Part shown: piece after piece, positions 18,481 to 44,526 of the stretch
How the letters are laid out: each line of letters opens with the position of its first letter
Numbering within the stretch: the first letter of the stretch is position 1
Assembly: GCF_037893015.1 (NCBI RefSeq)
Contig: NC_133666.1
Coordinates: 624,911,852 to 624,975,851 of the forward strand
DNA length: 64,000 bases
Direction of reading: 5' to 3'
Source of the DNA: Macrotis lagotis
Taxonomy: Eukaryota > Chordata > Mammalia > Peramelemorphia > Peramelidae
Notes under the pieces: generated by a model
Told to the model about the DNA's origin: nothing
Database searches by the model: none
What the model saw: the letters and a program-made list of their open reading frames with translations, nothing else
Position numbers and translations under genes: made by a program

Positions 18481-18582
18481 AATTAACTTGGTCTACAGGT
18501 AGAGCCAAAACAAATAACCAGAGAGCAGAGGCCCCAGAGATACCAGCCCACTTCTTCCAAAATCACCTCACCAGCCTCCATC
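18481..18582 (+). promoter_or_regulatory. Proximal promoter / 5' UTR of C3-like gene (tentative)
   Basis: The 100 bases before the start codon contain GGTAATTAAC at about 18479-18488, which includes an ATTAAC half-site like that of the liver factor HNF1. There is no clear TATA box at a fixed distance and the transcription start is not visible. The assignment rests only on position and this half-site. Confidence 0.25.
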
Positions 18583-21500
18583 ATGGAGGCCCCCAGGATC
18601 CTGGGCTTGTCTCAAATGCTTCTCTTTCTAGGTCTCCCTCTTGCCCACTGTGGTTCTCTGTGAGTAAGGGAGGGGACGGGATGTGTCTCCTATTTATTTC
18701 ATTGTGTGTTCCTCTGGTCACATTTGTCTTTCTTTCTGTCAACATGTCTCCAAGTTCTTCAGAGTCCTCTCTTTGTGATTGATTCCTTCTATATATCAGT
18801 GTATTCCCACCACCCACCATGTTTATTTCCCTTTGCATACCCCTCAGTTGTGTCTTCTTCATGTGTGGGTGGGATCCTACATTTTCTGAGGACCCTTCCA
18901 GCTCTGAAATTGTATGGCTTCCATTTGGGTTTTCTTTGAAGGCTTTCTTCTTTAGGTCTAGCTGTGAAAGTCTCCTTAGCATCCTCGAATATAATCCCAA
19001 GTGTTTTTCTCTCTGCAAGACTCCATGTGATTCTCTTGGCCTTTTCTACTCTGTATATTCATGGATATCCTTTTGTCATACTCCTCTCAGTTTGTTGCCC
19101 TCTGTATGTTTCCTGGTACAGGTACCTGGTGACCCCTCGAGTTCTATGGGTGGGGGGCCCAGAGAATATCATGCTCCAGGTGCATCAGGATCCTGAACAG
19201 CCCCTGGTCGAGCCCCTTGAAATACAGCTCACCATTTGGGACTTTCCCTTAGAAAGGAAGTTGTTATATGACAAACAACTCACACTCTCCCCAGACAAGA
19301 ACTATATGGCCTTGACTCCTGTGATGGTATGTGGTGTATTGTGGTATGGTGTAGTTTGGCATGTTGGGTTGGGTTTGGTAGAGATTCCAAGACAGATCCT
19401 TTTTTGCTGCAGTTAACCTTGGAATTTCAAGTCTCAAGATTAAAGGTGGTTTTTGTCAAACCTTAAGAGGAACTTCCTGAGAGTGAGGTTTGAACTAAAG
19501 CCCATTCTAGGATGTCATAGAGTCTAGAGTCAAGGGACTGAACTATATGGTCTCTAATGTTCCAAATCTGTAAAGCTCTTTCCCCTTTTCAGAAGCCCTT
19601 TTCAGGATCCATCCTTGGCTTCCACTCCTCTGAGGGCTCCATATAGGTAGGGACTAAGTGGTTGAGGTTTTCTTATGTAGTCATTTAAATATCTCCCCCT
19701 ACATGTAAGCCACGTCCTGGGCACCCAAGAAATCACAAAGCTGTTGACTCAGTTCCTGTCCTCATGACACAGCATCAAAAGAGGCACATAAATGAACACC
19801 TATTCATGATTTTTACGTGGTTGGTGTATTGAAAAGGAGTTCACAAAGATCCCTATAAGTCCCTAATGAGAAAGTCATTACTAATCAAGGAGGGAAGCAG
19901 AGAATCAGGAAAAAGACTTCTTAGAGTTAGTATGGACTAAAGGATGGGTAGGAAGTCAAGGAGAAATAAGAATAAAAGCTAAAGTTTAGATAGAATTTAC
20001 TGTACTTGACAAGTATTATCTCATCTGATCCTCTCAGCAACCCTGAGAAGTAGGGTTTTTTTTAACATTTTACAGATGAGGAAACTGAGGCAAACAATAA
20101 TTATGTGATTTGCACAGGGTTACACATCTAGCAAGAATCCAAGATTGCATTAGTACTGAAGTCTTCATGACTTTGAGCCTAGTGCTCTAGCCAATGTGTC
20201 AGCCAGGAGAGGGAGAGTACTCTGGATAAAAGAAAAAGTCTGAGTAAAAGTGCAGAAGGGGGAAGCATATGATATATGAGATGGGGGTCTAAAGAGAGCT
20301 TTTTTGGCTTGAATGTGCCTAGAATGATGGAAGAAGAGTCATATGATCCATGGTTGGAAAGAGAGGAACAATTGACTAGACAGAGATGTCAAGGAGAGCT
20401 GGAACTTTGAGAGACAATAGGGAAATACTTAAGTAGGGGACTCTTATGACTATTTTTTTGCATAAAACTCAAGGAAATGTATGTGGTGATTTATAAAAAC
20501 ATAAAGTACAAAAACAAAGAATGTATAAACCAAAGAGATTGAAGTCTGAAAGAGAAATTAGACAGACCACATAGAGTTGCTCTCTGCGAGGGAGCTGCAT
20601 ATAGACCAAAGCACAGAATCCCAGATTTAGAGTTGGAAGAGACAGCAAAGGAAGCTTAAAGAAAGGTCATCTTTTAATCTCTTCATTAAAAAAAAATCCA
20701 TTTAACATTTGTTTCTACATTATTTACATTTCCTAATGTACTGGGGTGACAAAATGGGAAAAGTAGAAACATTTATGTGCAATGTTAAAAGAAGTGGAAT
20801 AGCAGGACTTGGTAACTGATTGGATCTTAAGAGTTGAGGGGGAAAAGAAGGGGGTCAGCTAAGTGGCACAGTGGATAGAGCACCAGCCCTGGAGTCAGGA
20901 GTACTTGAGTTCAAATCCAGCCTCAGACACTTAATAACTGCCTAGCTGTATGGCCTTGGACAAGCCACTTAACCCCATTGCCTTGCAAAAACTAAAGAGA
21001 GAGAGAGAGAGAGAGAAGAAGCCAAAGATAAGCCTAAACAGAACCAGAGAAGTCAATGGAAAGAGTAGGTTTGAAGGAAAGGTACTGAGTTTGATACATG
21101 TTTTTTTCCCCAGATCCCTGAAAGCATAGTCTTCCCTCCACGACCAGGGAAGCAGTATGTGGTCCTCAAAGTCTTCTCAAAGACCTTCTCTCTGAGTAAA
21201 ACAGTCTTGGTTGCTCCACATGCTGGCTATATCTTCATCCAGACGGATAAGACAATCTATACCCCTGAGCAGCTTGGTGGGTCCCACTTCCTGGGAGGGA
21301 CAGAGGAGAGAAGTCTGATTTCTAGCTTTTGGAATTCCCAGAGGGCTCCCCTTTCTTTCTCTCCATCACTCAAAATCTCTGGAATTCAGCTCCCTCTAAT
21401 TGTTTAAGGTCTTTGGGCTCTAGTTTTCAAACTTTAAGTTCTGTTTTCCTCACTGGCTAGGGTCTCTGGGCTCTGACTTCTACTGCCAAGATTTCTGGGT

Positions 21501-22762
21501 TCTGGCAATCAACCTATCTTTGTTTCTTTCCCAGTTCAATACAGGGTGTTTACAGTGAACCATGGATTAGACCCAGTGATGAAGCCATTCACCATCGACA
21601 TTAAGGTTGTTTCTTAAGGGTCATGACAACCAGGTCCTAGGTATCCCAACAGAACTAGGGAGACCCTGGGAAGTATGTCCTAGAAGTAGGGGAAGGGGTT
21701 TAACTTCGGTACTCCTGACTCTCCTCTTTTCCCCCTCCAGAACCCCCAAGGCATCTCTGTCATCAACCAGAATTTAGGGGAAGAGAGTGGTTTCTTTGTG
21801 GGTTCCTTCCGTCTCCCTGAATTGGTCAGGTATTCCCTTCTCTGCTCCCTTCCCCAAAAGTTTCTCCCTCTGATACCCCCCCATTTTCTCCTTCCTCCTG
21901 CTTTTCTTCTTCCTTCCCTTCTCTCCCTTCTTCCATCTGTGGAACCATGTTGGGGGAATGGAAGTCTGGAGGAGAGGTTGACTAACCACTGGGTCTTGAT
22001 TATGACCTTATTGCTTCAGTTTTGGAACCTGGACTATTGAGGCCCGATACCAAAGTGGGCCTCAGAAGCCATACACTGTGTCCTTTGATGTGAAGGAATA
22101 TGGTAAGCAACTGTGTATTGTGCTACCAACATTAGACATATGGTCCCAGGTTCTGGGGTACTGGGTTTCTGGACTGAGGCATTGGACTCTAGGCTCTAGG
22201 TTCTCTCCTTTGAAGCTCACCTCTTCATCAACTCCAAATTCTCTTCCTTCTTAGTGCTCCCATCCTTTGAAGTCCAGTTGGTCCCCCATAAGACCTTCCT
22301 CTACCTTAAGGACCCAACATTGGAAGTTGATATCAAGGCCAAGTGAGCATTGCTACCTCTCATATTCAAAGGGAGAGATGCCTTACATGGGTTAGCGAAG
22401 TACAATGAGTCAGAAAGGGGGATAGAGAGACACTGGGTATTCACCAACCTCTTCTGCAAAGAAAACCAGGAAGACCCTCAGACACTTGGCTTCTGAAGCA
22501 TAAGGGAAAAAGAGAGGTCCAAGATATTCTCTCCACACACCCTATGGCTAACCCAGAAAAACCACTGGACTAGAAAAGTGAGAACTAGGTCCTGGTAGCT
22601 CTGTGAGGTTGTGTGAGGGTACTTCAGAATCAATGAGACAGCCTTCTCTGGGTCTCTAGGTATGTGTTCAACAAGCTTGTCGATGGACATGCTCTGGCCA
22701 TTTTTGGGATAAAACTGGACTCTGGCTCAATCACCCTCCAGGACTCACTGCAGCGAGTGAAG
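18583..22762 (+). CDS. C3P1: C3-like exons 1-8: signal peptide and MG1-MG2 region
   Basis: Exons: 18583-18659, 19122-19326, 21114-21276, 21535-21605, 21741-21829, 22020-22102, 22255-22342, 22660-22762. These encode the start of the beta chain. Phrases that match human C3 closely are [13 protein letters not shown] (exon 3), [11 protein letters not shown] (exon 4), [15 protein letters not shown] (exons 6-7) and [12 protein letters not shown] (exon 8). The 71-nt exon 4 and the phase pattern equal those of C3. Exon 4 ends at GTTGTT, a weak donor. Confidence 0.9.
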
Positions 22763-25700
22763 GTCAGCATTGATCTCCCTCTACTCCCCACCCTCTTCTG
22801 AGGCTCCCATTTCCTTTCTCAATTTTTCTTCTCTTCTTTCTGAATCAGATCTCTGAAGGCGAGGGACATGTTTCCCTCAGCAAGGACATCCTGACTGCAC
22901 AGTTCCTGGACCTCAATGATCTTTTGGGGGCTTTCATTTTTGTTAATGTCACAGTATTCTCCTCTGGTTGGTGACCCTCTTACCTTTCTCCACTCCTCCT
23001 GGTTCTCCTAAACTTGATCAGAAGTAGGGGAGGAAAGAAAAGGAGGGGACTGAATTGGGCATAAAAAATAATTCAGTCTTCTAGGACCTCAGTTTCCTCA
23101 TCTGTAAAATGGATCAAATGAGATCAGATCAGATCAGAACTTCCCTGCTCTCCTTGGGTCTGCTCTCACCAAAGGTTTCTTTGTTTCATAGCTGGTGAAA
23201 TGGTCCAGGCTGAGAATTCAGCAGTGAAGATAGTCCAGAGTCCCTATAATATCAGATTCATCAGAACGCCCCATTATTTCAAGCCTGGAATGCCCTTCCA
23301 CTTTGGGGTGAGGAGCCACCAAAAGCTGCAGACTTCAAAGACACTTTCCCCACATTCTAGACTCCCTCCTCCCCATTCCTTAGACAGAAGTCTCACTCCT
23401 TTCTAGGATAGACACTTCCTCCCAATAAAGAGACTCTTTTCAGGACAAAGACTTTCCTCTCCCCAGTCTAGAGACTCTCCCCACTTCCCAGCAGAGATTA
23501 CTCCAGACACTACCTGATAGGACTGAGCAGTAATGTCTGCCCTTCCCCCACTCACCTTACTTACAGGTTTCAGTCACCAACCCTGATGGATCTCCAGCAT
23601 CTGGGGTCCATGTGCAATGTGAAGACATCAAGATCCAGACTTCAGACCAGGGGCTTGGTTACTCGACTCTTAACACTGCAATCAACTTGGAAAGACTGTC
23701 TATTCAAGTAAGGACATAGAGTCCAGTCCCCTGAGATTGAAGGTGGAGTGGAGAGCAGAAGGAAGCCCAGAGGGATCTCAAAATTGGGAAGGGATGGTTT
23801 TATTCCCATACCTAATCCCCACTTCTCCCCAGGTAAAGACAGAGAATGAGCAGCTGCAGCCCCAGGAACAGGCCTCTGCTGAATTGACAATCCAGGCCTA
23901 TAAAACTCAGGAAAACTCTGGAAATTTCCTACACATTGCAGTCAACACCCTGGAAACTGAGGTTGGAAAAAACCTTCAAATGAGCCTCAATACAAGGCAC
24001 AAGAATGAAAACATGAGAGACAGAATCACGTACTTCACCATCCTGGTGAGGAAGGGTGTGAGGGCAGAGGTTTCAGGCAGCCAGAGGGCCTTCCTCATCT
24101 TCCCTTATGCCCACTATGGGAAGTGTTCGGTCATTACTGCCTAACGATGAGGAGGGAGACCTCAGAGAGGGATTGCTCCCTTCCCCTCAGAGTTACTCCT
24201 CATTGTGATTTCCCCTCCTTTTCTCTTTGCTCAGTTGTTGAGTAAAGGGCAGATCACACATGCTCAGATTGAGCGCAAGACAAGAGGGAGCATTGTAACA
24301 TCTTCCATGATCCTCGTGAGCCCAGAACTACTGCCATCTTTCCGCATCCTGGCCTATTACATTCTTCCAGGCTCCACTCCAGAGCTCGTCGCTGATTCCA
24401 TCTGGATTGATGTGAAGGACAAATGCATGGGCTCTGTGAGTCTTAGCCTCCCTTCTTTCCTTCATACCTGTCCCCCAAGTCCAGTGGCTTTGGTACACTC
24501 TCTGTTCTTCCCCAAATGCTAATTGTATGGGCCAGGCTGGAGGTCAGAGATAGAAAAGATCAGTCTGAGTTGGAGTGACCAAGGTTTCTGGGAGGAAATG
24601 AGTCTGGGGCTAGACTTTGAAAGTGGAGCACTTTGAGAGATCAGAGGGGCAGAGGGTCAAGGGATAGATTATAGGAGCAGGGTCTCAGGGGGAGGATTGA
24701 GGTCTGGTGAGGATCTGGGCCCACCTGGTGCTAGGAAGAATAGGGAGGAGAGGAAAAAACAAATAGGTCCCTTACAGACCTAGGGAAGCATCTAGAGAAC
24801 TATATTTGCATACCCCTCTGTGCTTCAACTTCTCTTTACCTACCTATCCCCATTCAGCTTCAAATAGGCCTGAAGGATTCAGCTGATGATGGAGTATTGG
24901 AACCCAGTAGCCCGGTGAATCTACTGCTGACTGGTGATCCTAGTGCCCTGGTAGGTCTGGTTGCTGTGGACAAGGCTGTCTATGCCCTAAACAGCAAGCA
25001 CAAGCTTTCCCAGAAGAAGGTGAGATCATACAAGGAAGTCCGGATACCACTGCTACAGGACTTGGCCTGAGACAACCCATCTTATGGTCTTCTTTGGTGC
25101 TCCATAGATCTGGGATGTGGTGGAGACTCGAGACATCGGCTGCACTGCTGGAAGTGGAAGAGACAACCTGGGCGTTTTCACAGATGCTGGACTGGACCTG
25201 ATGACAAGCACTGGACTGAGCACAAGGGCTAGTGAAGGTAGGAGAGGGAGACTGCAAGAAGCAGTCAAAGGATGCCAAAGAGGTGGGAAAGTAGGCCCTC
25301 CACAGAGTCATATGATACTGTATAAAGAGCACTGGATTTAGAAACAAAGAATCTGGATTCAACTCTCTAGTCTTCTCTGGAGTTCTTGGGCAAGTCCTAT
25401 TCTCCAATCTGGGCCTTAGTTTCTTCAGCTATAAAAAAGGAAAATTGTGCTTGATTGTGCTAAAATTCTTCTGGTTCGAGATACCATGATTAATGGGGCA
25501 GCTAGATGGTACAGTAGATAGAGCACTGATCCTGGAATCTGGAGGACTTCAGTTCAAATCCGGTATCTGACTCTTAATAATTACCTAGCTGTGTGTGACC
25601 TTGGACAAGTCACTTGACCCCATTGCTTTGCGGAAAAAAAAGATACTGTAATTAGGAAGGTGGCTGTGAAGGAGACCACACGGAGGAAGTCTGGAAAAGA

Positions 25701-28700
25701 AACTAGAAAGAGAATTTTGCTACCAAAAGGGTCTTTGGGCATAATGGGGAGGGCAGGTAGGTTAGGGGCCAGTGAGATACACTGTCTTTGGATAGGAGGG
25801 CCAGGTTGAAAGGACCATAATCTTAGCGCACGATTCAGAGGATGTCCCTCCCCCTCTAGATTGGGCATGCCCTCAGAGTTCTTCCTCCTCTTCTCGCAAA
25901 CGCAGATCCCTGAAGATTCTGGAAAAGAAGAGACAAAAAGGTTAGAATCAGTCCTTTTTGGTGGCTGCTTCTTGAACCCATGAATCCCAAATCCTGGTAC
26001 CCCCAAAGGACTGAACCTATAATTTACAAACCCTGAATCCCTAAACCTTAAAGAATTATTTTGGAAAGGGTGAAGGTGAAGAATGGGGAAAGGAAAAGAT
26101 GAGCTTCTATGTTCTTGGCCTGTTTGGCCTCAGAATCATCCCTTCACTTCCCTTCCCTTCTCATGAAGTGAATGAATTCAAGATAGAATTGGAGCAACGC
26201 TGCTGTGAAGCTGGGTTTCGAGAGGGCCCCATTGGACTCTCATGTGAGGACAGAGTCAGCTGGGTACGCTATGGCCCAACTTGTAAGGCTGCCTTTCTCC
26301 AGTGCTGTCACCACAAGGCAACACTGGACCAGGAGGCCCAAGCAGAGAAACTTGTGCTGGGGACGGGTAAGGAGGAAGCCAAGAGGGAGGAAGAGGGCAA
26401 GCCAGGGGTCAGACAAAGTTCTTACAGGGACATCCCACACACATACCCCATAGTTGACGAAGACGATGATTTAGACATGGAGCTCTTCGATGACTTAGAT
26501 TTGCCAGTGCGTACAGTCTTCCCTGAGAGCTGGCTCTGGAGAAAGGTCACTTTGCCTAAGGACCCTGCCCGAGGTTCAAGGTAAGACCCAGGCTCCCCAG
26601 AGACCCTTCCCTTCAATGTCTTAGCATCCAAAGCAGATAGTGTGTATGAACTCAAAAGAACAATTATAAACACAAAACAGTGACTGTGCCAGAAAAACAA
26701 CGACAATGACCTTGATCCCAGGAAAATGATCCAAGCATAGTAACTGAAATATAAGGGTTAAGACTATGGGATTTGATTATGGGAGAGTGACCATAACCCT
26801 AGGATAGCAACTGCTGCCAGACCTCAACACCAAATCAGTAACTATGGTCTGTGAACAATTGACTGACCCTAGGACAGTGACTATGGTTCTAAAATGGAGA
26901 TATCCTCTTCCCCACCCCATCCTCTAGTCTTGCAGCAATGACCATCTCTGTAATCCTGCCCGATTCCATCACCACTTGGCAAATCATGGCCGTGAGTCTC
27001 CAGAAGGGCAAAGGTGAGTCCTCTCTTCCCTGCATCCTAAGGTCCAGGGATTGTCCAGTCCTAGGTTATGTGAGGTCTCAAGGTCCCCATAAGGGCAGTA
27101 CAAAAGCTACTGGTTCCCCAGTCCCAAATTCCCCACCCCCTCCACTTCAAAACTTATACACTTTCACTGTCTATCCTTGTTCAGGTATTTGTATCTCAGA
27201 GCCCCTAGAGATCATAGCCAGGAAGTCTTTTTTTGTGGACCTGAAGCTGCCCTTCTCTGTGGTCAGGAATGAGCAGGTCCAAATTCAAGCTGTGCTGCAC
27301 AACTACCTGAAAAGACCTGTCCGGGTAAGGGGTCAGAGGGACCTTTGCACCATAAGCGAGTCATGAGCAAGCTCTTAACGAACTTTGAGTGCACTTTAGG
27401 GAGCTTTGAGCCAACGGGGAAGGGATGTGTTTGTATGAGTGAGCCATGAATGAACCCTGTTTGATCTGTGAACAGTGGCTAAACTATGGGTTAGCTGTGA
27501 AATTGTTGTGACCTTCCTTTACCATAGGCATGCATCCTTAGGCACTGACCATCAGTAATCGGCCAGACATTTCTAAGACAAGCCCATGGGTTGTGTTTGG
27601 CCTAATCCCCAAAGGTGCAAGAGAATGTTGAGAAAGCTCCTGGCTCTCTGGGTTCATGAGAGAGCATTAACAACCAGGGCAAGGTAGAAAACTTGGTGAT
27701 GCAGTGGATTGGCAGTTCTTTATATCAATAAGGTCACAGCTAGGTTGCTCTTAGGTAAAACACTAGATCTGGATTCAGGAAGACCTGAATTTAAAACACA
27801 AACAAACTACAAAATCCTCTCTTTACCATTTAAGTGTCTTGATTATCTGGCCTCAATCTACCTTTCCAGGCTTATTCCACATTACTCCCTTCCATGGACT
27901 CTGATCCAGCCAAGCTGTCTTTTTTTATTCCTCAAACATAACAAACACTCCATCCGTCTCCTCTCTGCTTTGTACAGGCTGCCCTTCAAATCTGGAATGT
28001 ATTCCTTCCTCACCTCTGTCTTAGAATCCCTTAATTCAATTGTCATCTTTGACACCAGCCATTTCCTGATCCTCCTGGCTGCCAGTGCCTTCCTCTCACC
28101 CCAGCCCTTTGTAATTACTTTCTTCATATTATGCATATATTTATATGTGTAACTGTTGTTTCCTTTTATAGGATGAAAACTCCTTGAGGGTGGGAACTGT
28201 TTCATTTCCATTTTGTAACCCCAGCTCCTAAAAGTGCCTGGCACATGGCAAGCCCCTAATAAATGCTTATTGATGAATTGATTGATCTGTAAAATGAGTA
28301 GGTTGAATTTTCGGAAGTAACTTCCACCTCTAATATTCTATGAGCCTAGTTTTTTGCTATGTGGCTTTAATGTGGCTTGTCCCTCTCCCTCCCTAGTCCC
28401 TACTAGACTGAGGTGTGGGACAGGTTCCAGACTGTCCCTTATTCTCCAAAGGGTGGGGAGTGGAGCTATTAGGGGACCCCTCCTTGTGGTGACAGTCTCT
28501 ATCCTGATTCCCTTCCAATTCAGGTTTCTGTAAAATTTCCCTACAAGAAGGCACTGTGCAGTAAATCCAGTGAGATCCGACCCTTCTCACAGAAAGTCTT
28601 GGTGCCTCCAGCCTCCTCACAAGTGGTGCCGTTCACCGTGCTGCCTGTAGAATCAGGCAACATTGATGTGGAAGTCAGGGTACAGGGGAGCAGTGTCTGG

Positions 28701-30766
28701 GACCAAGTAAAGAAGACGCTCTTTGTCCGGGTAACAGAATCCCTCGAGGGCAAGTCCAGAAAGGAAGATGGGGTGGTGGGGAGATGCAGAGAAGCCCACT
28801 ACCTCAGGCAGCATTGCTGCTGGCCTCTCATATTTACTGTAGATGTTGTCTTAACTTTCTCCAAGTCCTTTCTTGCTTGGGTCACTTTGATAATGTTCAT
28901 GGGGAGATTTGCCGCGGACTATTAAACCTCACAAGATAAGCTCTATCAGAATAACTCCTATTTTCCCGTGTAGAGCACTTTGCTCTCAATATCCCCAGCA
29001 GGTAGAGTATATTAAAAAAAGCTCCATTGTACAAATCACCCCCTATATAAGCAGGATTAGATCCCTCAAGGCCAGTGGCCTTTCTAATATACTATATAGG
29101 ACAAATAACACCTCATAGAAGCAGAGGGAGTAGATGGCACCAGTCACTTGAATTGAGTCTGTGCCACTGATGGACACAGTTTTCCTGGCAGGAAAGATTG
29201 GGGCAGAAATTGTCAGGCTACGTTGGTTTATGCTGAGGAAGCAGTTATCGGAATAGATAAGCTTCTGTCCTATAATAAATTGGAGTAATGGTTGTTGCCT
29301 AGAATCTGCTTCCCGGGCTAGTCCTGATTCAGTGCTACCAGAAAAACAAAGACACAATAGATGTAGCCCGCTTCTCCCCCCTGAGTCTCACTACAGTGGG
29401 GAGATAGGGTGCATATCCCCATGAAGATAACTAAGAGTCATCTTGGGGAAGAGAGCCAGCTCATCAGGCTCCAGTTGGGGTGCCTTTGCCTGTGATGAGA
29501 GGACAGTAGGGGAAAGGGACTCAATGGCTGCCATGGGCAGAAAAGACCTTCCAAGAAGAGGCAAGTCTTGTGTCAACACCCAGGAAGGGGAGGGGATTAA
29601 AGGAAGCTTAGCCACAGCAAAGTTCTCATTTTCTATATTCATTATTATTTTTTTTACAAAAACCTTTCACATCATATTTCAAGAAGTAGTCTTATCTTTT
29701 TAAAGGATTAAAATTTTCCCCATGAGGTCTGGGATAATGGAGAAATCACTTGGTTTAGAGCCGAAAGACCCCTGAAAAGCCAGCTATGCTACTTTTTAAC
29801 TTTGCAGTCTTGTATAAGCATCGTAGGAGGTTATCACTAGTTGTCCTGACCTCTGTCTTGCCATTGGATTCTGATGACTCTGGAGGAGACAGTAAGGCTG
29901 ATGATTTCAGACAGCTCTGCCTCACTCAAATCCAAATCAGTTGTAAGTCAAGACATCACCCTCCTGATGTTTTTGGTCCTTCTTGAGAAAGAAAGATGAA
30001 TAATAAAATGGCCACATTTCAACTTAGAAGGAACCTTGGAGCACATTTAAGTGGGATCCCCATTTTACAGATAGGAGTTAACATGACTTAGTCAAGGGAG
30101 TACTTGAAGAGAGTCAGGAAGACTTGAGTTTGAATTGTATCTCAGAACTTAATGTTTTGTCCTTGATTGTTTTTTAAAGTTTTTTTGCAAGGCAATGGGG
30201 TTAAGTTGCTTGCCGAAGGCCACACAGCTAGGTCATTATTAAGTGTCTGAGGCCGGATTTGAACTCAGGTACTCCTGACTCCAGGGTCGGTGCTCTATCC
30301 ACTGTACCACCTAGCCACCCCTGTCCTTCATTTTTGAAGAAGACCATGACATCAGGGAGGTGCTGCCATGACAAGCATGTGAATGGGATTGGAGTGAAGG
30401 GTTGCTGTGCTGAATCATCAGCCTCATTCTCCTCCAGAATCATTTGGATCCAGTAGTCAGATATGAATCAGGACAACTGGAGATAGTCCTGGACGAAAGG
30501 CAATCAGGGTTAAGTGACTTGCCTAAGGTCACACAACTCATAAATGGCAAATGTCCAAGCCTGGATTCCAACTCCATCCTTCTGACTCCAAAGTCAGTGC
30601 TCTATCCACTGTACCACCCAGCCGCCCTTGTATGACCCTGGGCAAGTCACTTTACACATCTAAGTCTCAATTCCCTTATATGAAGATTATAATAGCACTT
30701 TCCTCCCAGAATTGCTGAGGATTTAAATGAGATATTATGTCAAACATGTTATGAGCACAATATCAA

Positions 30767-30800
<34 letters not shown>

Positions 30801-33800
30801 ATTATTATTATCATTAACACTGTCATCAGGAAAATGAGGCCTGTAGAGTCAGGCCTTAAATTACTTGCTCAAGATCACACAGGTAGTAAATGGCAGAGCT
30901 GAATTTGAACTCAGGTCATCTGACTCAATATTAAACAAATATTCCACTGTACCATGCTAGCTCTCTTTTGGGGGGGGGGGTTGCAAGGCAATAGGGTTAA
31001 GTGGCTTGCCCAAGGCCATGCAGCTAGGTAATTATTAAGTGTCTGAGACTGGATTTGAACCCAGGTATTCCTGACTCCAGGGCCAGTGCTCTATCTACTG
31101 TGCCACCTAGCCGCCCCATGCTAGCTCTCTTTGCCTCTCTGATCTTCACTTCCCCCAAATGTAAAAATGGGTAGGGGGATTGGACTAAATGACCTGTAAT
31201 TTACCTCTTACATTATGGAATTCTTTTGACTACAGGCAGAAGGACAGATAGAGAGATTATCTTACAGCCTACTGTTGGACCCTAAAGGTTTGTGAGAACA
31301 CCTGTCTTGGAGGTCTGGGAAAGCTCCAGGGAGAACACGGGTGTGAGGTGTGCCTGGAGGTCTGAAGGCCACCAGGTTGAAATACAGTGGGGTGGGGTGG
31401 GGCGAAGGATAACCAAAGGCCTTGACCATGAGACAATCTAGCCAGCCCACTAGGCTATGCCTTACCAGTTCCAAAGGCCTCTGTGGCAGCCTTACTTGTT
31501 TGCTTCCCTTGACCTGACCCTCACCTCATCTTGATGGGCTCCTGGAATAGGAGACCATGGAAAATTCATTTCTACCCAGGTGTCACCCAGGAGGAAACTG
31601 TGCCAAGAAGGAATTTTGAGAATATGGTTCCTGGCACAAATGCAGAAGTGTTTGTCAGTGTACAAGGTAATAAGAACAAGCCCATACTCATAGAAGCAGG
31701 ATTGCTGGGCTGCAGATGGGACCTATCTTTCCTTGCTAAATGTGGGAGGGGGGACAGCTAGGGAGTGCAGTGGATAGAGCCCTGGAGTCAGGAGTACCTG
31801 AGTTCAAATCCGGCCTTAGACGCTTAATAATTGCCTAGCTGTGTGACCTTGGGCAAGTCACTTAATCCCATTGCCTTAAATTTAAAAATAAATAAAAATA
31901 AATGCAAGGGGGTGGTACATACATAGACTCTCATGATGATGATGCATCATTCCTCTTTCTTTCAAGGAGACATTCTTGGTGAGCCAATCCTTGGAGCCCT
32001 AACACCTTCCGAATTGCACAAACTGTTGCAAGTGCCAACTGGCTGCCCAGAGCAGACCCTAAGTTCTTTGGCCCCTCTGGTCATCCTAACCCAATACCTG
32101 GATGCCACAGGACAGTGGGATAAAATTGGGGTGGAAAAAAGAAACCAGGTGATGGACAACATTGTGGCTGGTAAGTGTATGTGTGAAGGGGAAGTGACTA
32201 TTAGCTCCTCCCAACCTGGGTATGATTTTGCCTTGGTTCTACCCTATTCTAACCCATAAACATTAACTCCGAAGTCCCCACATTCCATCAGAATCCCTGC
32301 CTGCTCAAGTTTCCCAGGGCCTAGCATTTCCTCATTGACACATCTGCACCCAGACACTGACCCCTTCCCCAAGTTTCCTTTGGGTAATGTGAATCCTGAG
32401 ATTCTTAGACACTACTTATAGTACACCACTGACACCATTCCTCCAAGTAAGACCATGATACAGGTACTGAAGCTGCCCTGGCCCGCTCAGTTATACTCAG
32501 AGACCATGACCCTCCTAACTCTGAGGCTGATACCTCCTGAGATTTCACTGAGATCTGGGACCTGAGACTGACTTCACCATCTTCCTGCCAGGATATGCAA
32601 GAATGCTGACTCATCGGAATTCAGATGGCACCTTCCACATTCATCGTGAAAGCCCTGGGAGCACATGGTGAGGGAGCTGCTGTCACTAACCCCAGGCCAA
32701 GGCTCTCCCCCAGCCTTTCACACACACACATCCTTTTAGAATCAGTATATTATGGGTGATATCAATAACAGAAGACCCATCAACATACCCCACTAGTACC
32801 TATGATTGCTACTGCTATCACATTAGCATAAGAGCCCAAGTTTGGAAGTTGGGAGAGATATGGATTGTTGTGATAATTCTGTTGTGTTAACTCACTGTAT
32901 GAGACCTCAATTTCTCTATCTGTAAAATGAGGACAATAATATCTTCTCTGGCAAGCTCAGAGGGAGATAGAATAGGACAATTAGAAATATTTATTGACAT
33001 CCTGCTGGAAAATGCATACGCCTTGGGTAAAAGGATGAGTAGACCCAGACTCTGATCTCAGAGGTCAGAATTTAGGGAAGATGAATAGATAAAGTATTAG
33101 CATTTCTGAATGCCAAGCTTTATGCTCCTGTCTTCTAGGAGCTTATATTCTAATGAGGGAGACAATACATAATGCAAAATGGGAAGGATATTTTTACATT
33201 GCAACAATCAAGAAGGAATGGAAATGAGAGGGAGGGGAATTATGGAGGAGGTCCTTCTCCAAATGGTGACCTTGGGGAAGAGAGTCCCCAGTGGAGAAAG
33301 AAAGGCTCAAGGTAGAGGTTCTCCCTGTAGTAATCTCTAAACCTGGCTGTAAAGGTTCAGGGAAAGAAATCAGCCTAGACTGGAAGGGCTCCCTAGAGAA
33401 AGGCCCTACAGACCCAGAGAGAAAAGTGGAGGTCACCAGGGCCTGGGCAGCCAACTTTCTCTTCATCATCCCCATGCAGTCCAATGGAACAGAACCCCAC
33501 CCCATGACTGTCCTGCCTACTCCCCGGCCATGCCAACATTTGTACCTCCTCCACTCTGCAGGCTCACCAGTTATGTATTCAGGATCTTTGCTATGGCCTC
33601 CAAGTCAATGACCAAGAGTGGAATAGACTCAAACATTCTGTGCAGCAGTGCCAAATGGCTCATTACCCAGAGACAGAAAGAGGATGGGAGCTTCCAGGAA
33701 AAAGCCCCAGTGATTGTGAAGTCCATGCAGGCAAGCCTTTGGGCCCTGAGGACATAAAGGAGCAGGAGAGCAGTTAAAAGATAATGGTTTCTCTTGAGCC

Positions 33801-36128: not shown

Positions 36129-36172
<44 letters not shown>

Positions 36173-39100: not shown

Positions 39101-42100
39101 CTCCAGAAGGGTTTGTGCCTAAAGGTTTCCTCTCCTTGTACCTCCCAGCAGTTTCTGAGGAAGGAAACAATAAACCAAACATTATATAGTCCCAATTCTA
39201 CAGAAAAAGAAACTGAGACCTAGAGAGAAAGGGTGTAATTTGTCCAATGTCACATAGCAATTTAGTGGTAGAACTAAGATTATACCCTGAACTCCTATTC
39301 CTTGGACCCATTCCTCCTGAATAATAACACTTCCAAAGAGGGTATCTCTGCTAAGTTGCAGAGAATTGGACCTCAAGTTTCCCATTTGTCAAACAGTTTC
39401 CCAGACTGGTAATAGGAGTCTGATCTTGCTAGTGAATAGATATTTTGCTTTAATTCTGATGGGCATTGATGCCATCTCCATCAGGGTCTGGGCCTTGCCT
39501 AGAACCCCAAAATTACTGAGTCCCCCAAGCTTCTGAGTTCCCAGAATCTAAATCCTTGACATCTTCAATATCTACTAAATTGCCTAGTCCCTGAGTTTCC
39601 AACCTCCCAAATTTCTAATGTCTCAGAGGCCCTGAGTTCCTGACATCCCAAAGTCACTAGTGTTCCAGAGTCCCTGTCATGCCAAATTACCTATTGTCCC
39701 CAAATCATCAACATTCCAAATCTTTGATCCCCCCAAGTCCCCAAGTCTCTGAATTTCAATGTCTCAGAGACCCTGTCATCTTAGTCCCAATACCCCTGAA
39801 TCCTTGATGTTAACAAGTCCAAAATATCCCTATTCCTCTATTTCAGCTTACAAGCAGCATTGAGATGTACGCCTTCCAGTATGAGACCAAAACCAGCTCC
39901 AGTAATAGTTCTGTCATTCTCTACCTGGAAAAGGTGAGACCAAACAATACAGATCACCTGGGAACTAAGATTCAATCCAAATACAGGAATGTGGCCACTG
40001 GCATTCCCAAAGCATGTTGAGGGACCAATTCCCAAAATACAATGTTTTCTGAACCATACCCATTAAGGTACTCTTGACATGTCTAATACAGTACTCCCTC
40101 TGGTTTACATTCATTAACACACACGGGAAACCGATACTCATTTACCCAGTTTTCTCAGACTTATGTCCATTAACATATAGTTCCCTCTGGTTCATGACCA
40201 TAATAGGTGAAAGCAGCTGAATAACTTTTATTGTGTGTCCTTGACCTTTAATTAAGGGTCTACTTACTATATGCTAAGTACTAGGGATAGGAAGAAAGGC
40301 AAACAGCCCCTGCTTTTAAGGAGTTCACAGTATAATGGGGGGGGGGCACAACATTCAAAAAACTATGTTCAAACAAGATATATATCTATATATACAAGAT
40401 AAATTAGAGGTAATCTCAAATATCCCTCTTTCCTAAGCACCCATTGGTGAATGGGGAACTGAACATGCAACTCCCTCTGACCCATACCTGTTGGCACATA
40501 GATACATACTTTGTACTAACCCATAGCCATTGGCACATTGGAATAAGTGAGGGCAATGGTGATTTCTCTAGCTAAAACATCAGGAACCCCTTCAAATCAA
40601 GATACAGATTTATGGAGTCCACCCCTTCCCAGGTACAACCTCTCCCCTGAATGTTTCATGATTGTTATCTCTGGGTCCACAATAGTTCCCAATATCTCAT
40701 GTTCCTTGGTCAGTGCTCCCTGGCTAGCATCACTATGGTCAGGGTATCCAGAAGTAGAATCTTTTCTGATCAGCAATCCCTGCAATCAGAGTTCCTTATA
40801 GTCATTTTCTCCCATGGGGGAATGTCTGCCATGATCAGGAACCTATCTAACCCTTCTCCCAGCTCTCCAACCAAATGGACACTGTGCTTAGCTTCCGCAT
40901 TCATCGGCTACTTCAAACAGAGCTCTTGCAAGCTGCTTCTGTCACCATCATCAACTACTATGAGCCTGGTGAGTAGGGACCAAAATGAGCGGGATTGATT
41001 TCCAAGACCTGGAGGGAGGAAGAAAGGAGGTGAGTCAGACTTAGGAGATTGTAAAATCATCGAGAGCAAAGCTAAACAGGGAACATCCAAAGTGGGGCAG
41101 AGCCAAGGGAAACATGGGATAATCCCTTATCTCTCAGATATTATTTGAGTAGGACCTGGAACTCTAGGCAGTCCAGGTCAGAGTCACCATCTGCATCCAT
41201 GGGCATGAAGAGAAGGAATGCCTTAACTGAATGGATATCAAGGAATCACTCAAAGAGAAAACCCCCTTTGGAATGGGAAGGCTTGGAATACATACTGTAA
41301 GGGGTGGCAGACTGAGAAAATTGGCTATTGCCTGGCACTGGAAGCTGGCACAGGAAATCCAGGGCATTTGAGTTGTTCTCCAGGGTACCAGCATTCTGCC
41401 AGACCCACCTAAATCAGTCCAGGCCAGCTGAGTTCCTTGATTGTGGGAAGGCCACAAGACCCTGAAGGGTCCTTGGTTTTAAGTCCCCTTGTTTCTTCAC
41501 CAATCCATGGGGAATGGCAGGGGAGAGATGCAGTGCCTTCTACAATGTGCCAGGAGATTCTGTGCTGATGAGAAGACTCTGCCACAAAGATGTATGCCGG
41601 TGTGCTGAAGGTGAGCTGGGACTCTGGTCCATTGCGTAGCGGAGTTGTGCCCACCCTAAACAAATGGGAGGTCCCAGTAATGAATTGAGTTCTGTAGGGG
41701 CCTCTAGAGATGCAAGAAGTAACTTCAGGAGATGCTCTCTCACAGGCACAGTTTACTGCAAGGATACATGGCATTGGGAACAGAATAATACACTGTAACC
41801 TTTAAAGGGCTCTAGGAATCATAAGGCTGGGAAGACAGCTATTTGGAGACATCTGGGTTGCACAGTGGTTAGAGGGTTGAACATGGAGGCAGAAAGACCT
41901 GAGTTCAAATCAAGTCTCAGACACTGACTAGCTCTGTGACCCTGGACAAGTCACTCAACCTCTTCTTGCCTCAGTTTCCTCATTTATAAAATGAAGATAA
42001 TAATAATAATGACAACACCTACCTCCCAGGGTTGTTTTGAGAATAAAATGAGATATTTGTAAATTGTTTTCCAAGCCTTAAAGTACTATATGAAAGTTAT

Positions 42101-44307
42101 TATTATTGAAGAGACAAGAGAAGACACAAAGTGACAAAGTTTGGGAGATTTTTGATTTTCATTTTCATTTTTTTACTGCCAGCAGGGACTAAAAATAATT
42201 GGGGGGGAAGGTGTCTGAAAGATTTGATTGAAACTGACATTATCTACTTGTCCATCTATCATCTGTCTGTCTGCCTAACTCTGTCTTTCCATCTGTCTGT
42301 CTTTCCAATTTCTCAAATGCATCCAGAAAAGTGTCCCTCCCTAATCAGTAACCACAATGGCATCAACCAGAAGGAACTTCAGATCACAGCTTGTCAGCCA
42401 GGAGTTGACTTTGGTGAGTTCCAAAGCCCCTCCAATAGTTTACAGTGGGAGGAGAGATGGGCACCTTTGAAAGATAGGGTGAGGTGGAATTCAAAATCCC
42501 ATGAGGGTAAAGGTAGATAAGAGCTGGGAGTGAGTCCCTACACATTAGAGTTAGATGGCTTTATTTTTCCAATCAGTTTATAAGGTCCACTTGGAGGAAC
42601 TGGAGAAGCTTGACACCTATGTCTACTACACCATGAAAATCCTAGAAGTCATCAAAAGTGGTGAGTTCAGCAGTGTGTCCTATCTCACAGGTCTGGGAGA
42701 GTCAGAGGAAAGATTCAAGAGAAACATATTGGGTTCTCTGAAAGATCAGGAACAGAGATGAGATTGGCCCATTGGGAGGGAGAACTGTTTATCTCCAAAA
42801 GGCAAAAGATCCATGAGTCTCCTCAAAGAGACTTGTTTTTTATGTCACCCATATGCAAAGTGCCATCAGTCTCTCTTCATTTTAAGATCATGGAATACAG
42901 AGCCAGAAGGAACCTTACAGATTTTCTAGTCCAACTCCCTCATTTTAGTCTGTCAACAGGTGCCAGGGATACAAAAAAAAGGGGGAAATAAACATTCCTT
43001 ATTTTCATGGAACTCCCAGTCTCATGAGGGTTCTATGACCAAACAAGACATATGTCTCTATCCAAACAAGCCTTAGACGGGTTAAATTGGAGATAAATAT
43101 AAAGGAAAGGCACTAAGATTAAGGAAGACTAGACAAGGCGTCTTGCTGAAATGGAAGCTTAGCTGAGTTTGAAGGAAATCAGGAATGCTAAAGCAGAGAT
43201 GAAGAGGAAGAGAGTTCCAGGCATGGGGAGACCAGCAAGTGCAAACTCTGGGAGATGGAGTGTCTTGGGAAAGGAATGATCAAGAGAACAACAAGCAGAT
43301 TCCATGGATGGGGACAAGGATGAAAAATTCAAAAAATTAGGAAGGACTTTAAAAACTAAATTGAAGATTCTCTATTTTACTCAGGGGGCAATAAAGAACA
43401 CTGAAGTTTATTGAATTTTTACATTCAAAGACAAAGACTCAGAAAGGTTAGGAGACTTGTCCAATGATATTGCTGATGATCATATTTATGCTTTTCCCAC
43501 AGTCTAAACAGTCAGTAGGATTTCTAATCCCAGAGTTCTTGAGGGAACTTGGCATCGATGGTAGAGTCTCCTTCCTTAGCCTCTAATTCCAGTTCCTCTA
43601 ACTGCATTCTCCTTTCTCCAAAAGATTCATCCTCTTCTTCAACCCTCAATCTGATTGATGCTGACATTTACAAACTTCCTTTTAGAAGCAAAAGAACTTT
43701 CTTCATTTCTCTACCCTTTAGGCACAGATGTTGGAGTTCTCAACAAAAGCAAAAAATTTATCTCCCATGTAATGTGTTTCTATGCCCTTGAGCTGAAGGC
43801 TAATGAGACATATTTAATCATGGGCCAGTCATCAGATCTGTGGAAGATCAGAGATGAGTAAGTTCTAAGGATTGCCTTACTTGCTAGATATGGGGATTGA
43901 AGAGATCCCAGCCCAAAGCAGAGCTGGCTTACCTCTAATCTCAAGCCCCCCCCCCCCCATATGAAGAATTGTGTGAGCCAGGATGTTAAACATAGCTGGC
44001 ATTAAGGCGGGGGGAGGGGAATTAGACCATGATCTGACTCCCAACCTTCAAGCCAACAACTCAAACCTCAAATCTGCAAGATGTGAGTCTCTCCCATTGG
44101 ACAAGATAAAGAAGTCTTCCTTCTTCCCTCTCCCCACCCCAACAATCTATACCCCTTTCTTCTTGTTTTAACAGCTACAGCTATGCCTTAAGCATGGATA
44201 CCTTCATCATTAGGTGGCCACAAATGTCTGATGTTGCTTTTTTGGAATTTCGAAATGCATTGGAAAATTTTTCAGAATTTCTGAGTATTCATGGTTGTGA
44301 AAATTAG
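18583..44307 (+). CDS. C3P1: Complement C3-like protein, intact 41-exon gene (C3P1-like)
   Basis: Secreted thioester-family complement protein, closest to C3. The 41 exons assemble to 4965 nt, or 1654 residues, with every junction in frame and GT-AG introns throughout except one GC-AG. Human C3 also has 41 exons and 1663 residues. The start codon at 18583 has A at -3 and G at +4 and opens a signal peptide ([18 protein letters not shown], cleavage near residue 23). Domains in order: MG1-6 with linker, basic processing site at 666-669, anaphylatoxin domain 692-728, MG6/MG7, CUB, thioester domain around Cys1006, MG8, C345c/NTR to Cys1652. Inter-chain Cys553 and Cys820 are kept. Changed: GCPEQ for GCGEQ, Val1125 at the catalytic His, no Arg at the C3a-type cleavage point. 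The gene lies directly after RDH8 in the same orientation, the position of the human pseudogene C3P1. The symbol rests on that synteny and on the differences from C3. Stop TAG at 44305. Confidence 0.92.
19327..21113. repeat. C3-like intron 2 with MIR and SINE
   Basis: Contains an antisense MIR at about 19975-20210 (TACAGATGAGGAAACTGAGG) and a sense short SINE at 20853-20994 followed by a (GA)n run to about 21016. The rest is unassigned. Confidence 0.75.
22849..25940 (+). CDS. C3P1: C3-like exons 9-16: MG3-MG6 and beta/alpha processing site
   Basis: Exons: 22849-22966, 23192-23307, 23567-23707, 23833-24045, 24235-24435, 24858-25019, 25108-25237, 25860-25940. Matches to C3 include [43 protein letters not shown] and [11 protein letters not shown], where Cys553 is the inter-chain cysteine. 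Exon 15 encodes [12 protein letters not shown] and [12 protein letters not shown]. Exon 16 is serine-rich and carries the furin-type site RKRR (residues 666-669), equivalent to the RRRR of C3. N-glycosylation sequon NVT is at the end of exon 9. Confidence 0.9.
24436..24857. other. C3-like intron 13
   Basis: Unique-looking. G/A-rich middle part. Nothing recognised. Confidence 0.5.
25238..25859. repeat. C3-like intron 15 with MIR and SINE
   Basis: A MIR-like piece at about 25320-25440 (TTGGGCAAGTCCTATTCTCC) is followed by a diverged sense short SINE at 25496-25641. Confidence 0.7.
26169..26580 (+). CDS. C3P1: C3-like exons 17-18: anaphylatoxin domain
   Basis: Exon 17 (26169-26366) is 198 nt, exactly the length in human C3. 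It encodes the six-Cys anaphylatoxin fold: CC at 692-693, single Cys residues in SCED and TCKA, and the final CC of LQCCHHK. Exon 18 (26454-26580) begins [14 protein letters not shown] and contains the conserved FPESWLW. Where C3 reads LGLAR before the convertase cut, this protein reads LVLGT, so no arginine is available in the spliced form. The 87-nt intron between the two exons has no in-frame stop and could be retained, adding 29 residues. Confidence 0.85.
26581..26927. repeat. C3-like intron 18, degenerate tandem repeat
   Basis: A loose repeat around CCCTAGGACAGTGACTATGG recurs several times between about 26670 and 26895 (for example near 26795, 26840 and 26870). Confidence 0.45.
26928..31666 (+). 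CDS. C3P1: C3-like exons 19-23: MG7 and CUB start
   Basis: Exons: 26928-27013, 27185-27324, 28524-28730, 31236-31287, 31580-31666. Conserved phrases: [27 protein letters not shown] (Cys820, pairs with Cys553), [20 protein letters not shown]. Exon 20 (140 nt) and exon 23 (87 nt) have the C3 lengths. Exons 21 and 22 have weak donors (GTAACA and GTTTGT), and exon 22 is 15 nt shorter than its C3 counterpart, so these two ends are the least certain in the block. Confidence 0.85.
27800..28275 (+). repeat. L2 3' end
   Basis: In intron 20. Pyrimidine-rich body, then ACTCCTTGAGGGTGGGAAC and the L2 terminus AATAAATGCTTATTGATGAA. Confidence 0.8.
28731..30169. other. C3-like intron 21, first part, unassigned
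   Basis: No exon or named repeat recognised, apart from a piece near 29865-29985 (GATTCTGATGACTCTGGAGG then ACATCACCCTCCTGATG) resembling the body of the long SINE. Confidence 0.45.
30170..30321 (-). repeat. Short SINE, antisense
   Basis: Complete reversed copy in intron 21, adjoining the long SINE. A TGTCCTT flank occurs on both sides. Confidence 0.85.
30322..30630 (-). repeat. Long tRNA-derived SINE (MAR-like), antisense
   Basis: Reverse of the element at 5592: body TGACATCAGGGAGGTGCTGC, then the tRNA-like head ending CCACTGTACCACCCAGC. Confidence 0.8.
30631..30964. repeat. Two MIR pieces around an (ATT)n tract
   Basis: A sense MIR 3' part (ACCCTGGGCAAGTCACTTTA) leads to (ATT)n at 30768-30812, then a reversed MIR (TTGCTCAAGATCACACAGG). 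Confidence 0.7.
30965..31117 (-). repeat. Short SINE, antisense, with TSD
   Basis: Flanked by CATGCTAGCTCTCTTT (30953-30968 and 31118-31133), a perfect 16-nt duplication. Confidence 0.9.
31752..31896 (+). repeat. Short SINE in intron 23
   Basis: Sense copy with a small deletion at GGATAGAGCCCTGGAGTC, ending 70 bases before exon 24. Confidence 0.85.
31967..35275 (+). CDS. C3P1: C3-like exons 24-28: thioester domain, first half
   Basis: Exons: 31967-32170, 32592-32667, 33562-33730, 34770-34865, 35122-35275. Exon 24 (204 nt, as in C3) encodes [17 protein letters not shown]: Cys1006 (32044-32046), Pro1007 (32047-32049), Glu1008, Gln1009 (32053-32055). Exon 25 encodes the STWLTSYV junction with exon 26. 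At the position of C3 His1126 the codon is GTG, Val1125 (33716-33718, in APVIVKSMQ). Cysteines of ILCSSAKW and ILCTSDE match a disulfide pair of the C3 domain. Exon 26 ends at a GC donor (CAG|GCAAGC). Confidence 0.88.
32171..32591. other. C3-like intron 24
   Basis: No repeat recognised. Confidence 0.5.
32668..33561. repeat. C3-like intron 25 with a MIR piece
   Basis: MIR-like segment at about 32840-32945 (CAATTTCTCTATCTGTAAAA). The remainder is unassigned. Confidence 0.5.
33731..34769. repeat. C3-like intron 26 (GC-AG) with old repeats
   Basis: Starts GCAAGC. Contains an old repeat at about 33885-34120 (ATAAACATTTATTAAATG, TCTAATGGGAGGGGACAG), the same family as at 49970 and 57005, and a MIR at about 34420-34560. 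Confidence 0.6.
34967..35066. repeat. Minisatellite, four 25-bp units
   Basis: Units start at 34967, 34992, 35017 and 35042, each a variant of GATGGGAGGCACCAGGGCTG plus five bases. It lies in intron 27, 55 bases before exon 28. Confidence 0.9.
35276..37080. repeat. C3-like intron 28 with nested SINEs and MIRs
   Basis: A MAR-type SINE (about 35785-35984, continuing at 36172-36205) is interrupted by a short SINE (35985-36130) and a (GA)n run (36133-36170). Reversed MIR-like pieces lie at about 36500-36640 and 36850-37010 (GATAAGGAAACTGAACC). Confidence 0.75.
37081..40968 (+). CDS. C3P1: C3-like exons 29-36: thioester domain second half, CUB end, MG8
   Basis: Exons: 37081-37250, 37330-37488, 37672-37731, 38268-38352, 38590-38632, 38911-38998, 39847-39933, 40863-40968. 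Matching phrases are [58 protein letters not shown] and [10 protein letters not shown]. Exons 30 (159 nt), 31 (60), 34 (88) and 36 (106) keep C3 lengths. The short exon 33 (43 nt) is the hardest to see: it reads [14 protein letters not shown] and joins to RYTGPQE, in frame on both sides. Exon 35 contains an NSS sequon. Confidence 0.85.
37732..38267. repeat. C3-like intron 31 with a 49-bp tandem duplication
   Basis: AGACATCTGTCCCTTATC with following sequence occurs at 37864 and again at 37913, both ending CTCCTTCCCT. Confidence 0.85.
38999..39846. repeat. C3-like intron 34 with MIR and degenerate tandem repeat
   Basis: Reversed MIR-like piece at about 39190-39310. From about 39490 to 39835 a C/T-rich loose repeat recurs around CCCTGAGTTCCCAACATCCC. 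Confidence 0.5.
39934..40862. repeat. C3-like intron 35 with degenerate repeats
   Basis: Loose units around ACTCCCTCTGGTTCATGACC and CCATTGGCACATAG recur at 40060-40205 and 40465-40545. They are split by an old repeat at about 40245-40440 of the family seen at 49970, with a G run near 40338. Confidence 0.5.
41521..44307 (+). CDS. C3P1: C3-like exons 37-41: C345c/NTR domain and stop
   Basis: Exons: 41521-41610, 42327-42413, 42577-42660, 43722-43857, 44175-44307. The 90-nt exon 37 is easy to miss; it encodes [12 protein letters not shown] and [11 protein letters not shown], the cysteine-rich start of the NTR domain. It joins exon 38 (EKCPSLISN, then TACQPGVDF). Exons 39 (84 nt) and 40 (136 nt) match C3 lengths. 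The last exon ends LSIHGCEN; the final cysteine is kept, but the close CysCys pair that C3 has about 15-25 residues before it is absent. An NFS sequon is at ENFSEF. Confidence 0.9.
41855..42105 (+). repeat. MIR
   Basis: Near-complete sense MIR in intron 37 (GTGACCCTGGACAAGTCAC, TGCCTCAGTTTCCTCA, CTACCTCCCAGGGTTGT). Confidence 0.85.
42661..43721. repeat. C3-like intron 39 with an old repeat
   Basis: About 42950-43330 carries the family seen at 49970 and 57005 (GTTCCAGGCATGGGGAGAC, TGGAGTGTCTTGGG). The rest is unassigned. Confidence 0.55.
43858..44174. other. C3-like intron 40
   Basis: Contains a C run near 43947-43959. No other feature recognised. Confidence 0.5.
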
Positions 44308-44520: not shown

Positions 44521-44526
44521 AATAAA
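44521..44526 (+). terminator. Poly(A) signal of the C3-like gene
   Basis: AATAAA 214 bases after the stop codon, in a non-repeat context, followed by a T/G-containing stretch (GTGGTGGTCAG) about 25 bases on. The best candidate for the 3' end of the transcript. Confidence 0.75.

Follow-up and report, generated by a model that had tools for sequence, protein, structure and literature searches.

An intact C3P1-type gene beside RDH8 in the bilby encodes a member of a putatively ancient C3-like lineage with an altered thioester motif

Downstream of RDH8, the bilby (Macrotis lagotis) carries an intact gene for a protein of the C3/C4/C5 class that is distinct from C3, C4 and C5, and that falls into one clade with proteins of placentals, turtles and amphibians. 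Based on the gene model, phylogenetic analyses and site-by-site comparisons with C3, we propose, with a confidence that we put at about even for the explanation as a whole, that it represents an ancient C3 paralog which is constrained in therians, carries an amine-type thioester and is triggered by something other than the C3a cut.

Gene structure and genomic neighbourhood

The window, i.e. the whole 64-kb stretch analysed here, corresponds to C9:624911852-624975851 of the 3.66-Gb bilby assembly. An ab initio splice search from the ATG recovered most exons of the C3P1-type gene and was followed by hand curation, yielding 41 coding exons of 4965 nt in total, equivalent to 1654 codons and a stop (Table 1). 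The joined exons are identical in every letter to the RefSeq protein 'venom factor-like [Macrotis lagotis]' (P0001, 1654 aa), and the exon number, codon number, coordinates and unbroken frame proposed in a first-pass annotation of the window were all correct. Exon phase is consistent throughout and the terminal stop is the only one. The introns are of GT-AG type in 39 of 40 cases and GC-AG in one (exon 26 donor, 33731), and the ATG is embedded in a strong start context, CATCATGG. The alternative frames of a 1659-aa version of the model contain 87 and 102 stops, and each of 300 random concatenations matched in length had at least 75 stops. The same annotation had likened the exon lengths to those of human C3, which holds for 16 of 39 exons when compared to presumed human lengths.

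Two alternative splicing choices were considered and rejected. Exon 21 possesses two usable donors, a GT at 28731 as in RefSeq and a strong-looking GC at 28750 (AGG/gcaagt), both leaving the frame open with a matching exon 22 acceptor. The exon end at 28730 was adopted, as the residues added by the GC donor in the 1659-aa version are absent in P0001 and in seven orthologs. Similarly, reading through the in-frame, stop-free 87 nt that follow exon 17 extends the 1659-aa version to 1689 codons; this segment is spliced out in RefSeq, and the insert is found in no ortholog row shown.

Using the N-terminal SDR part of two fused gene models (P0059 and P0081) as query, tblastn detected RDH8 exons with 57-84% identity (E to 1e-26) upstream of the C3P1-type gene and on the same strand, which confirms the arrangement annotated previously. 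In these models, from Galemys and Ovis, an RDH8-type dehydrogenase, with Pfam adh_short present in both, is fused to the same C3-like protein, and the order RDH8 followed by the C3-like gene therefore extends to placentals. In human, C3P1, which carries the name 'complement component 3 precursor pseudogene', is located at the same place beside RDH8, in line with P0059 and P0081, and is annotated as a pseudogene; the bilby gene is intact and many other mammals have full-length copies.

The liver-type HNF1 consensus matches the window at 15 places where 3.7 would be expected, one of them a weak site shortly upstream of the start codon. Thirteen of the other matches (e.g. at 1063, 14606, 31027 and 61661) are two mutually complementary sequences, GGTAATTATTAAG at seven sites and its complement CTTAATAATTACC at six, and the upstream site is not among them. 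These copies probably belong to a single SINE family inserted in both orientations.

Table 1 Features of the window and of the bilby C3P1-type gene.
Feature	Position in window	Strand	Remarks
RDH8 exons	299-460, 2023-2205, 2539-2634, 3126-3353, 3526-3702 (~299-3702)	+	tblastn
LINE-1 ORF1 fragment	7255-7890	+	Pfam Transposase_22 and/or Tnp_22_dsRBD
HNF1-like site GTTGGTAATTAAC	18475..18487	+	~100 nt 5' of ATG, 2 mismatches, weak
C3P1-type gene, 41 coding exons	18583..44307	+	
Beta/alpha processing site RKRR, aa 666-669	25895..25906	+	
Exon 17, anaphylatoxin-type core	26169..26366	+	followed by the 87-nt in-frame intron 26367-26453
Thioester site Cys-Pro-Glu-Gln, aa 1006-1009	32044..32055	+	C3: Cys-Gly-Glu-Gln in 31/31 sampled rows
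Val 1125, catalytic-His column	33716..33718	+	from alignment
Last exon	44175..44307	+	C345C end ...HGCEN, then stop
AATAAA polyadenylation signal	44521..44526	+	214 nt past stop
LINE-1 ORF1 fragment	52971-53321	+	Pfam Transposase_22 and/or Tnp_22_dsRBD

Orthologs in therians and relatives in turtles and amphibians

Three protein searches, from which the best 120 of 575, of 2221 and of 1207 matches were taken, provided 235 proteins. Orthologs, represented by database predictions of which some are partial, were found in at least eight marsupial species, full-length in five (Macrotis, Petaurus, Sarcophilus, Dromiciops and Monodelphis) and partial in Trichosurus, Notamacropus and Vombatus. Placental orthologs are many among the matches listed, including macaque (full-length), bats, dog and elephant, and bear the RefSeq names 'complement C3-like' or 'complement C3'. 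In Eptesicus fuscus, two proteins share the name 'complement C3-like', of which P0188 is the true C3 and P0022 the C3P1 ortholog.

In a FastTree census of 229 rows together with human C3, C4 and C5, prepared with four snake venom factors removed, as well as two rows shorter than 1000 aa, 123 of the 229 best matches listed fall into one clade with the bilby protein (support 1.0). The clade consists of P0001-P0089 (89 rows), the placental rows P0092 and P0111 and otherwise amphibians (frogs, salamanders and caecilians) and turtles only. The gene had been annotated as an intact marsupial counterpart of C3P1, of which the place and the intactness stand, while the clade extends well beyond marsupials. 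Among the matches listed, the clade is without rows from birds, crocodiles, squamates or Xenopus, which suggests loss in these groups, and no mouse or rat names were seen.

Phylogeny and age of the split

For a more restricted set of 35 rows (15 C3P1-type, 11 tetrapod C3, 7 fish or shark C3, human C4 and C5), an IQ-TREE analysis under LG+C20 recovered amphibian, turtle and therian C3P1-type proteins as a single clade (100/100) in species-tree order, next to a second clade uniting shark, bony-fish and tetrapod C3 (98/97). The bilby protein groups with neither C4 nor C5, each represented by one human row. When the outgroups were removed, a single 100/100 branch separated the C3P1 clade from all C3 rows, and bony-vertebrate C3 was set apart from shark C3 (100/99). 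A FastTree of 65 rows is consistent with the same split. With regard to the tree check proposed earlier, in which placental orthologs stood in for translated human C3P1, the bilby protein is distinct from C3, C4 and C5 and is not the only C3 of the species.

In AU tests, for which the constrained clades were chosen with the first tree known, grouping C3P1 with tetrapod C3, i.e. a duplication of tetrapod age, was rejected (p 0.0048), and so was grouping therian C3P1 with mammal C3 as a recent copy (p 7e-29). Placing C3P1 with bony-vertebrate C3 and the sharks outside was 11 log units worse and not rejected (p 0.055). Judged from these trees, the split predates that between ray-finned and lobe-finned fish, and is perhaps older than jawed vertebrates. 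We note that three other tetrapod C3 rows (P0185, P0179 and P0160, from a salamander, a softshell turtle and one other) form a branch outside the main clade of tetrapod C3.

The bilby's own C3, C4 and C5

The bilby possesses a separate C3, which is split in the assembly (loci L003, L011, L012 and L045). The first ~19 exons, which extend as far as residue ~789 in bat C3, are located at C9:629908578-629923441 (+), 5 Mb from the C3P1-type gene, with one exon further on; the C3a part terminates in ...NLSRS, and a 100-N gap starts at 629924940, after these exons. The last exons map to C1 at 37.25 Mb (C1:37246781-37255281), and the middle ones, TED included, were not located. No C3 thioester exon was present among 22 TED matches in the bilby genome, and no additional C3 exon in a 160-kb stretch with the C1 piece, which covers ~142 kb upstream of it. 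A PF21406 search of the bilby genome gave no match anywhere and hence no information. The split probably reflects misassembly, with a true break of C3 being conceivable. C4 and C5 are located at C5:8.31 Mb and C1:332.3 Mb, respectively.

Domains and chemical sites

Eleven Pfam domains above cut-off were identified in the bilby protein, namely MG1-4, bait-region domain, ANATO, A2M, TED, CUB segment, receptor domain and NTR/C345C. MG domains, ANATO, CUB, TED, MG8 and C345C are hence combined in a single chain, as in the C3/C4/C5 class, and the N-terminus resembles a signal peptide as judged by eye. By kind, cobra venom factor gives the best PDB match (1233 bits), followed by human C3 (1193), C4 (642) and C5 (630). 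Compared to C3 orthologs, the protein differs in its place outside the C3 clade, in GCPEQ instead of GCGEQ, in Val instead of the catalytic His and in the terminus of exon 17, ...LVLGT instead of ...LGLAR, which leaves no C-terminal Arg.

These differences were followed through 65 aligned rows, including 32 of the C3P1 clade and 31 of C3. The thioester motif of the clade is CPEQ in 25 rows, CVEQ in four (all turtles), CAEQ in two and CSEQ in one, and never CGEQ. The census agrees: CPEQ 103, CVEQ 11, CAEQ 3, CSEQ 1 and not found 5 inside the clade (n=123), as opposed to CGEQ 103, CVEQ 2 and not found 1 outside it (n=106), so that CGEQ is absent from all 118 clade rows among the matches listed in which the motif was located. 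The two CVEQ rows outside the clade are turtle and lizard proteins (P0090 and P0172), and loss of the glycine therefore occurred repeatedly within the family. In 91 therian rows, the motif is CPEQ in 86 and CSEQ in one (gap in four), and the His column holds Met in 79 and Val in ten (gap in two).

The catalytic His is present in none of the 32 clade rows and in 24 of 31 C3 rows, the seven exceptions being three turtle and four shark or ray copies (3/18 tetrapod, 4/9 shark). At the C3a end, the clade has Thr in 17/17 therians, Lys in 4/4 turtles and, in amphibians, Arg in 10/11 and Lys in 1/11; C3 retains Arg in 28/31 rows, and lacks it in 3 of 18 tetrapod rows. Loss of the His or of the C3a-end Arg alone is thus not clade-defining, since some C3 rows lose them as well. 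Cysteines 1389, 1458, 1637 and 1646, which form two bridges in human C3, are gone in all 32 clade rows. Positions 1637 and 1646 are occupied in 31/31 C3 rows, and 1389 and 1458 are missing also in 3/4 bony-fish and 2/9 shark C3 rows. Of the 27 cysteine columns of C3, 23 are nearly invariant in the 91 therian rows where covered and the four are lost as a set, and the inter-chain cysteines 559 and 816 are retained in 32/32 clade rows. A basic cut of the R-x-x-R type is kept in the patterns shown for the clade, as is the acidic stretch past the C3a end in most rows shown. Immediately N-terminal to VFPESWLW, a P-V-R-T stretch is conserved with variants, and C3 also has an Arg there.

Sequence constraint

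The bilby protein shares 78-84% identity with four marsupial orthologs of 1641-1656 aa, and 61.7% with the macaque ortholog as compared to 39.4% with human C3. In three placental pairs, for which the C3P1 set has macaque in place of human and grey whale in place of hippo, identities for C3P1 versus C3 are 79.5 vs 76.4, 80.8 vs 77.0 and 79.8 vs 79.7%. An unconstrained gene would not be expected to match the divergence of C3 in this way. Outside mammals, the C3P1-type gene diverges faster than C3, with 48.0 vs 63.0% between caecilian and salamander, 85.7 vs 91.2% between turtles (different turtle pairs) and 50.4 vs 58.7% between primate and turtle. These protein-level proxies suggest purifying selection in therians.

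Discussion

We propose the following scheme for the bilby protein. The gene would be the ortholog of a C3 paralog, C3P1, that split from C3 before the divergence of ray-finned fish and tetrapods. Its product is likely secreted, probably from liver, and cut at RKRR into beta and alpha chains held by a bridge of the Cys559-Cys816 type; the motifs for these steps are in place. Cys-Pro-Glu-Gln most likely still forms the thioester, an outcome that we favour modestly over its failure, because the position after the Cys need not be Gly: a study of E. coli alpha-2-macroglobulin names CxEQ as the thioester motif conserved across most family members, with CLEQ as the version found in E. coli and Salmonella (PMC3328433, PMC4498604). 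The Pro within the motif might, on the other hand, block the bond.

Lacking the His, the thioester would react with amines directly, in the manner of C4A or alpha-2-macroglobulin, and would be slower and longer lived than that of C3. C4A and alpha-2-macroglobulin, which are without the His, react directly, mainly with amines, and have a longer life. The C3a-end Arg is lost in therians, whose C3P1 would therefore not be opened by the classical C3a cut nor release a C3a-type fragment. Instead, the protein may be triggered by a different protease, by a partner that binds it or by opening slowly on its own, with the P-V-R-T stretch as one candidate site. The protein could then serve as a covalent tag or a protease trap, possibly in the acute phase. 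The latter is hinted at by the Egyptian rousette, for which the accessible portion of PMC9958679 reports a liver transcript, labelled 'C3P1' there, at 31 tpm that rose 6-fold with Marburg virus and 1-fold with Ebola virus, and lists C3 among genes that were either downregulated or silent. As the same bat carries P0013, a full-length ortholog with CPEQ, the pseudogene label was probably inherited from the human annotation.

Other explanations for the altered sites were weighed. If the thioester were dead, the protein could act non-covalently like C5, e.g. as a platform on which complement proteases and regulators dock, or as a decoy for them. Gly and His are gone in all 32 clade rows and the C3a-end Arg in all 17 therian rows, and two disulphides are missing, all in favour of such a scaffold; we nevertheless find it unlikely, if worth keeping in mind, as the site retains its Cys, Glu and Gln in 87/87 covering therian rows and 32/32 clade rows, C5, by contrast, is without Cys and Gln, and bacterial CLEQ is functional as a thioester site in the parts of the literature cited above. 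Alternatively, the protein may resemble C3(H2O) or venom factor, with C345C binding factor B to generate a soluble, slowly regulated convertase. The retained C345C, with its Cys third from the end and an end length as in C3 (...GCxx), would fit, as would the acidic stretch, the RefSeq name and the top PDB score of cobra venom factor. The cysteines of the 1637-1646 disulphide of C345C are missing in all 32 clade rows, however, the last residue varies (N, S, T or Y) and 'venom factor-like' is probably a mere best-hit name, which makes a convertase former distinctly improbable.

That the bilby copy is a relic, intact by luck and with its expression gone, appears very improbable to us. Human C3P1 is called a pseudogene, also in what is available of PMC9958679, but the bilby gene combines a full frame across 41 exons and close identity to its marsupial orthologs with a strong ATG context and an AATAAA signal. 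We give hardly any credence to the bilby protein being the C3 of the species or a recent copy of it: the domain set is that of C3 and the bilby C3 is fragmented in the assembly, but the separate gene 5 Mb away has C3-like beta and C3a exons, and the trees, the AU test and the far higher identity to the macaque ortholog than to human C3 oppose this. The ancient, therian-constrained paralog with an amine-type thioester hence remains our preferred reading. The first-pass annotation had also suggested a functional fourth complement protein; an intact gene of the C3/C4/C5 class that is none of the three was indeed found, although with the thioester motif, the His and the C3a-end Arg changed.

Compared to known systems, C3 shares the domain plan, the beta/alpha cut and 23 of 27 cysteines with the bilby protein, at ~39% identity, but has GCGEQ, the catalytic His and the MG8 and C345C disulphides that the C3P1 clade lacks, as well as the C3a Arg that therian members lack. 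C4 of the C4A type has a non-His catalytic column and a similar ...SMQGG stretch in common with the C3P1-type protein, yet retains CGEQ and is placed outside in the tree. C4 also has an alpha/gamma cut. Cobra venom factor, the source of the RefSeq name, is a snake C3 derivative. Alpha-2-macroglobulins are not known to contain ANATO or C345C, both of which are present in the bilby protein; the CxEQ site is shared, including CLEQ in E. coli according to the sections available of the papers cited above.

A further parallel is C3.2. In the accessible text of PMC7768046 (2020), C3.1 and C3.2 are duplicates from the vertebrate root, with C3.2 surviving in ray-finned fish only and branching beside sharks, tetrapods and most teleost C3. 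C3.2 has Val for glycine (GCGEQN to GCVEQN), is expressed in sea bream liver, conserves its cysteines up to C345C in sea bream and keeps the MG8 bridge in gar; C3P1, if it is C3.2, would therefore have lost these later. As far as that text goes, C3.2 shares its Val with the turtle C3P1-type rows and branches where the best tree here puts the C3P1 clade, a tree against which the sharks-outside alternative was not rejected (p 0.055). Tetrapods are represented there by human, mouse, chicken, Anolis and Xenopus; among the matches listed, the C3P1 clade contains no row of these species. We consider it about as likely as not that C3P1 is the tetrapod C3.2, i.e. a fourth complement lineage from the jawed-vertebrate root or earlier with its own His-less CPEQ/CVEQ chemistry. 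On this reading, amphibians, turtles and many therians would have retained the gene, and human, mouse, birds, squamates and Xenopus would each have lost it independently. The lineage would then have been overlooked because the model tetrapods lack it, and the restriction to ray-finned fish would be wrong.

Though misleadingly named, the bilby protein already has a RefSeq entry, and C3-class TEPs are a known kind, while the variant and its taxonomic spread look new. In the open-licence PMC literature, as far as its texts were available, we found neither an intact C3P1 nor a C3 paralog common to amphibians, turtles and mammals as the subject of a paper. Human C3P1 is covered as a transcribed pseudogene in the available parts of PMC6914412 and PMC8705536, the former including its transcript measured in liver tissue, and it is by annotation that the gene counts as lost in humans.

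Vertebrate complement is taught with three C3-class proteins. A fourth, if true, that is old, full-length and constrained like C3 in mammals would have been overlooked in serum complement studies of livestock, bats, dogs and macaques, where it is usually filed as 'C3', and humans would differ from some animal models through the loss of C3P1. Such a protein could also explain why a 'C3P1 pseudogene' signal appears in infection data from bats. Moreover, the changed thioester, the missing His and the lost C3a Arg would represent a natural experiment on which parts of C3 serve which function.
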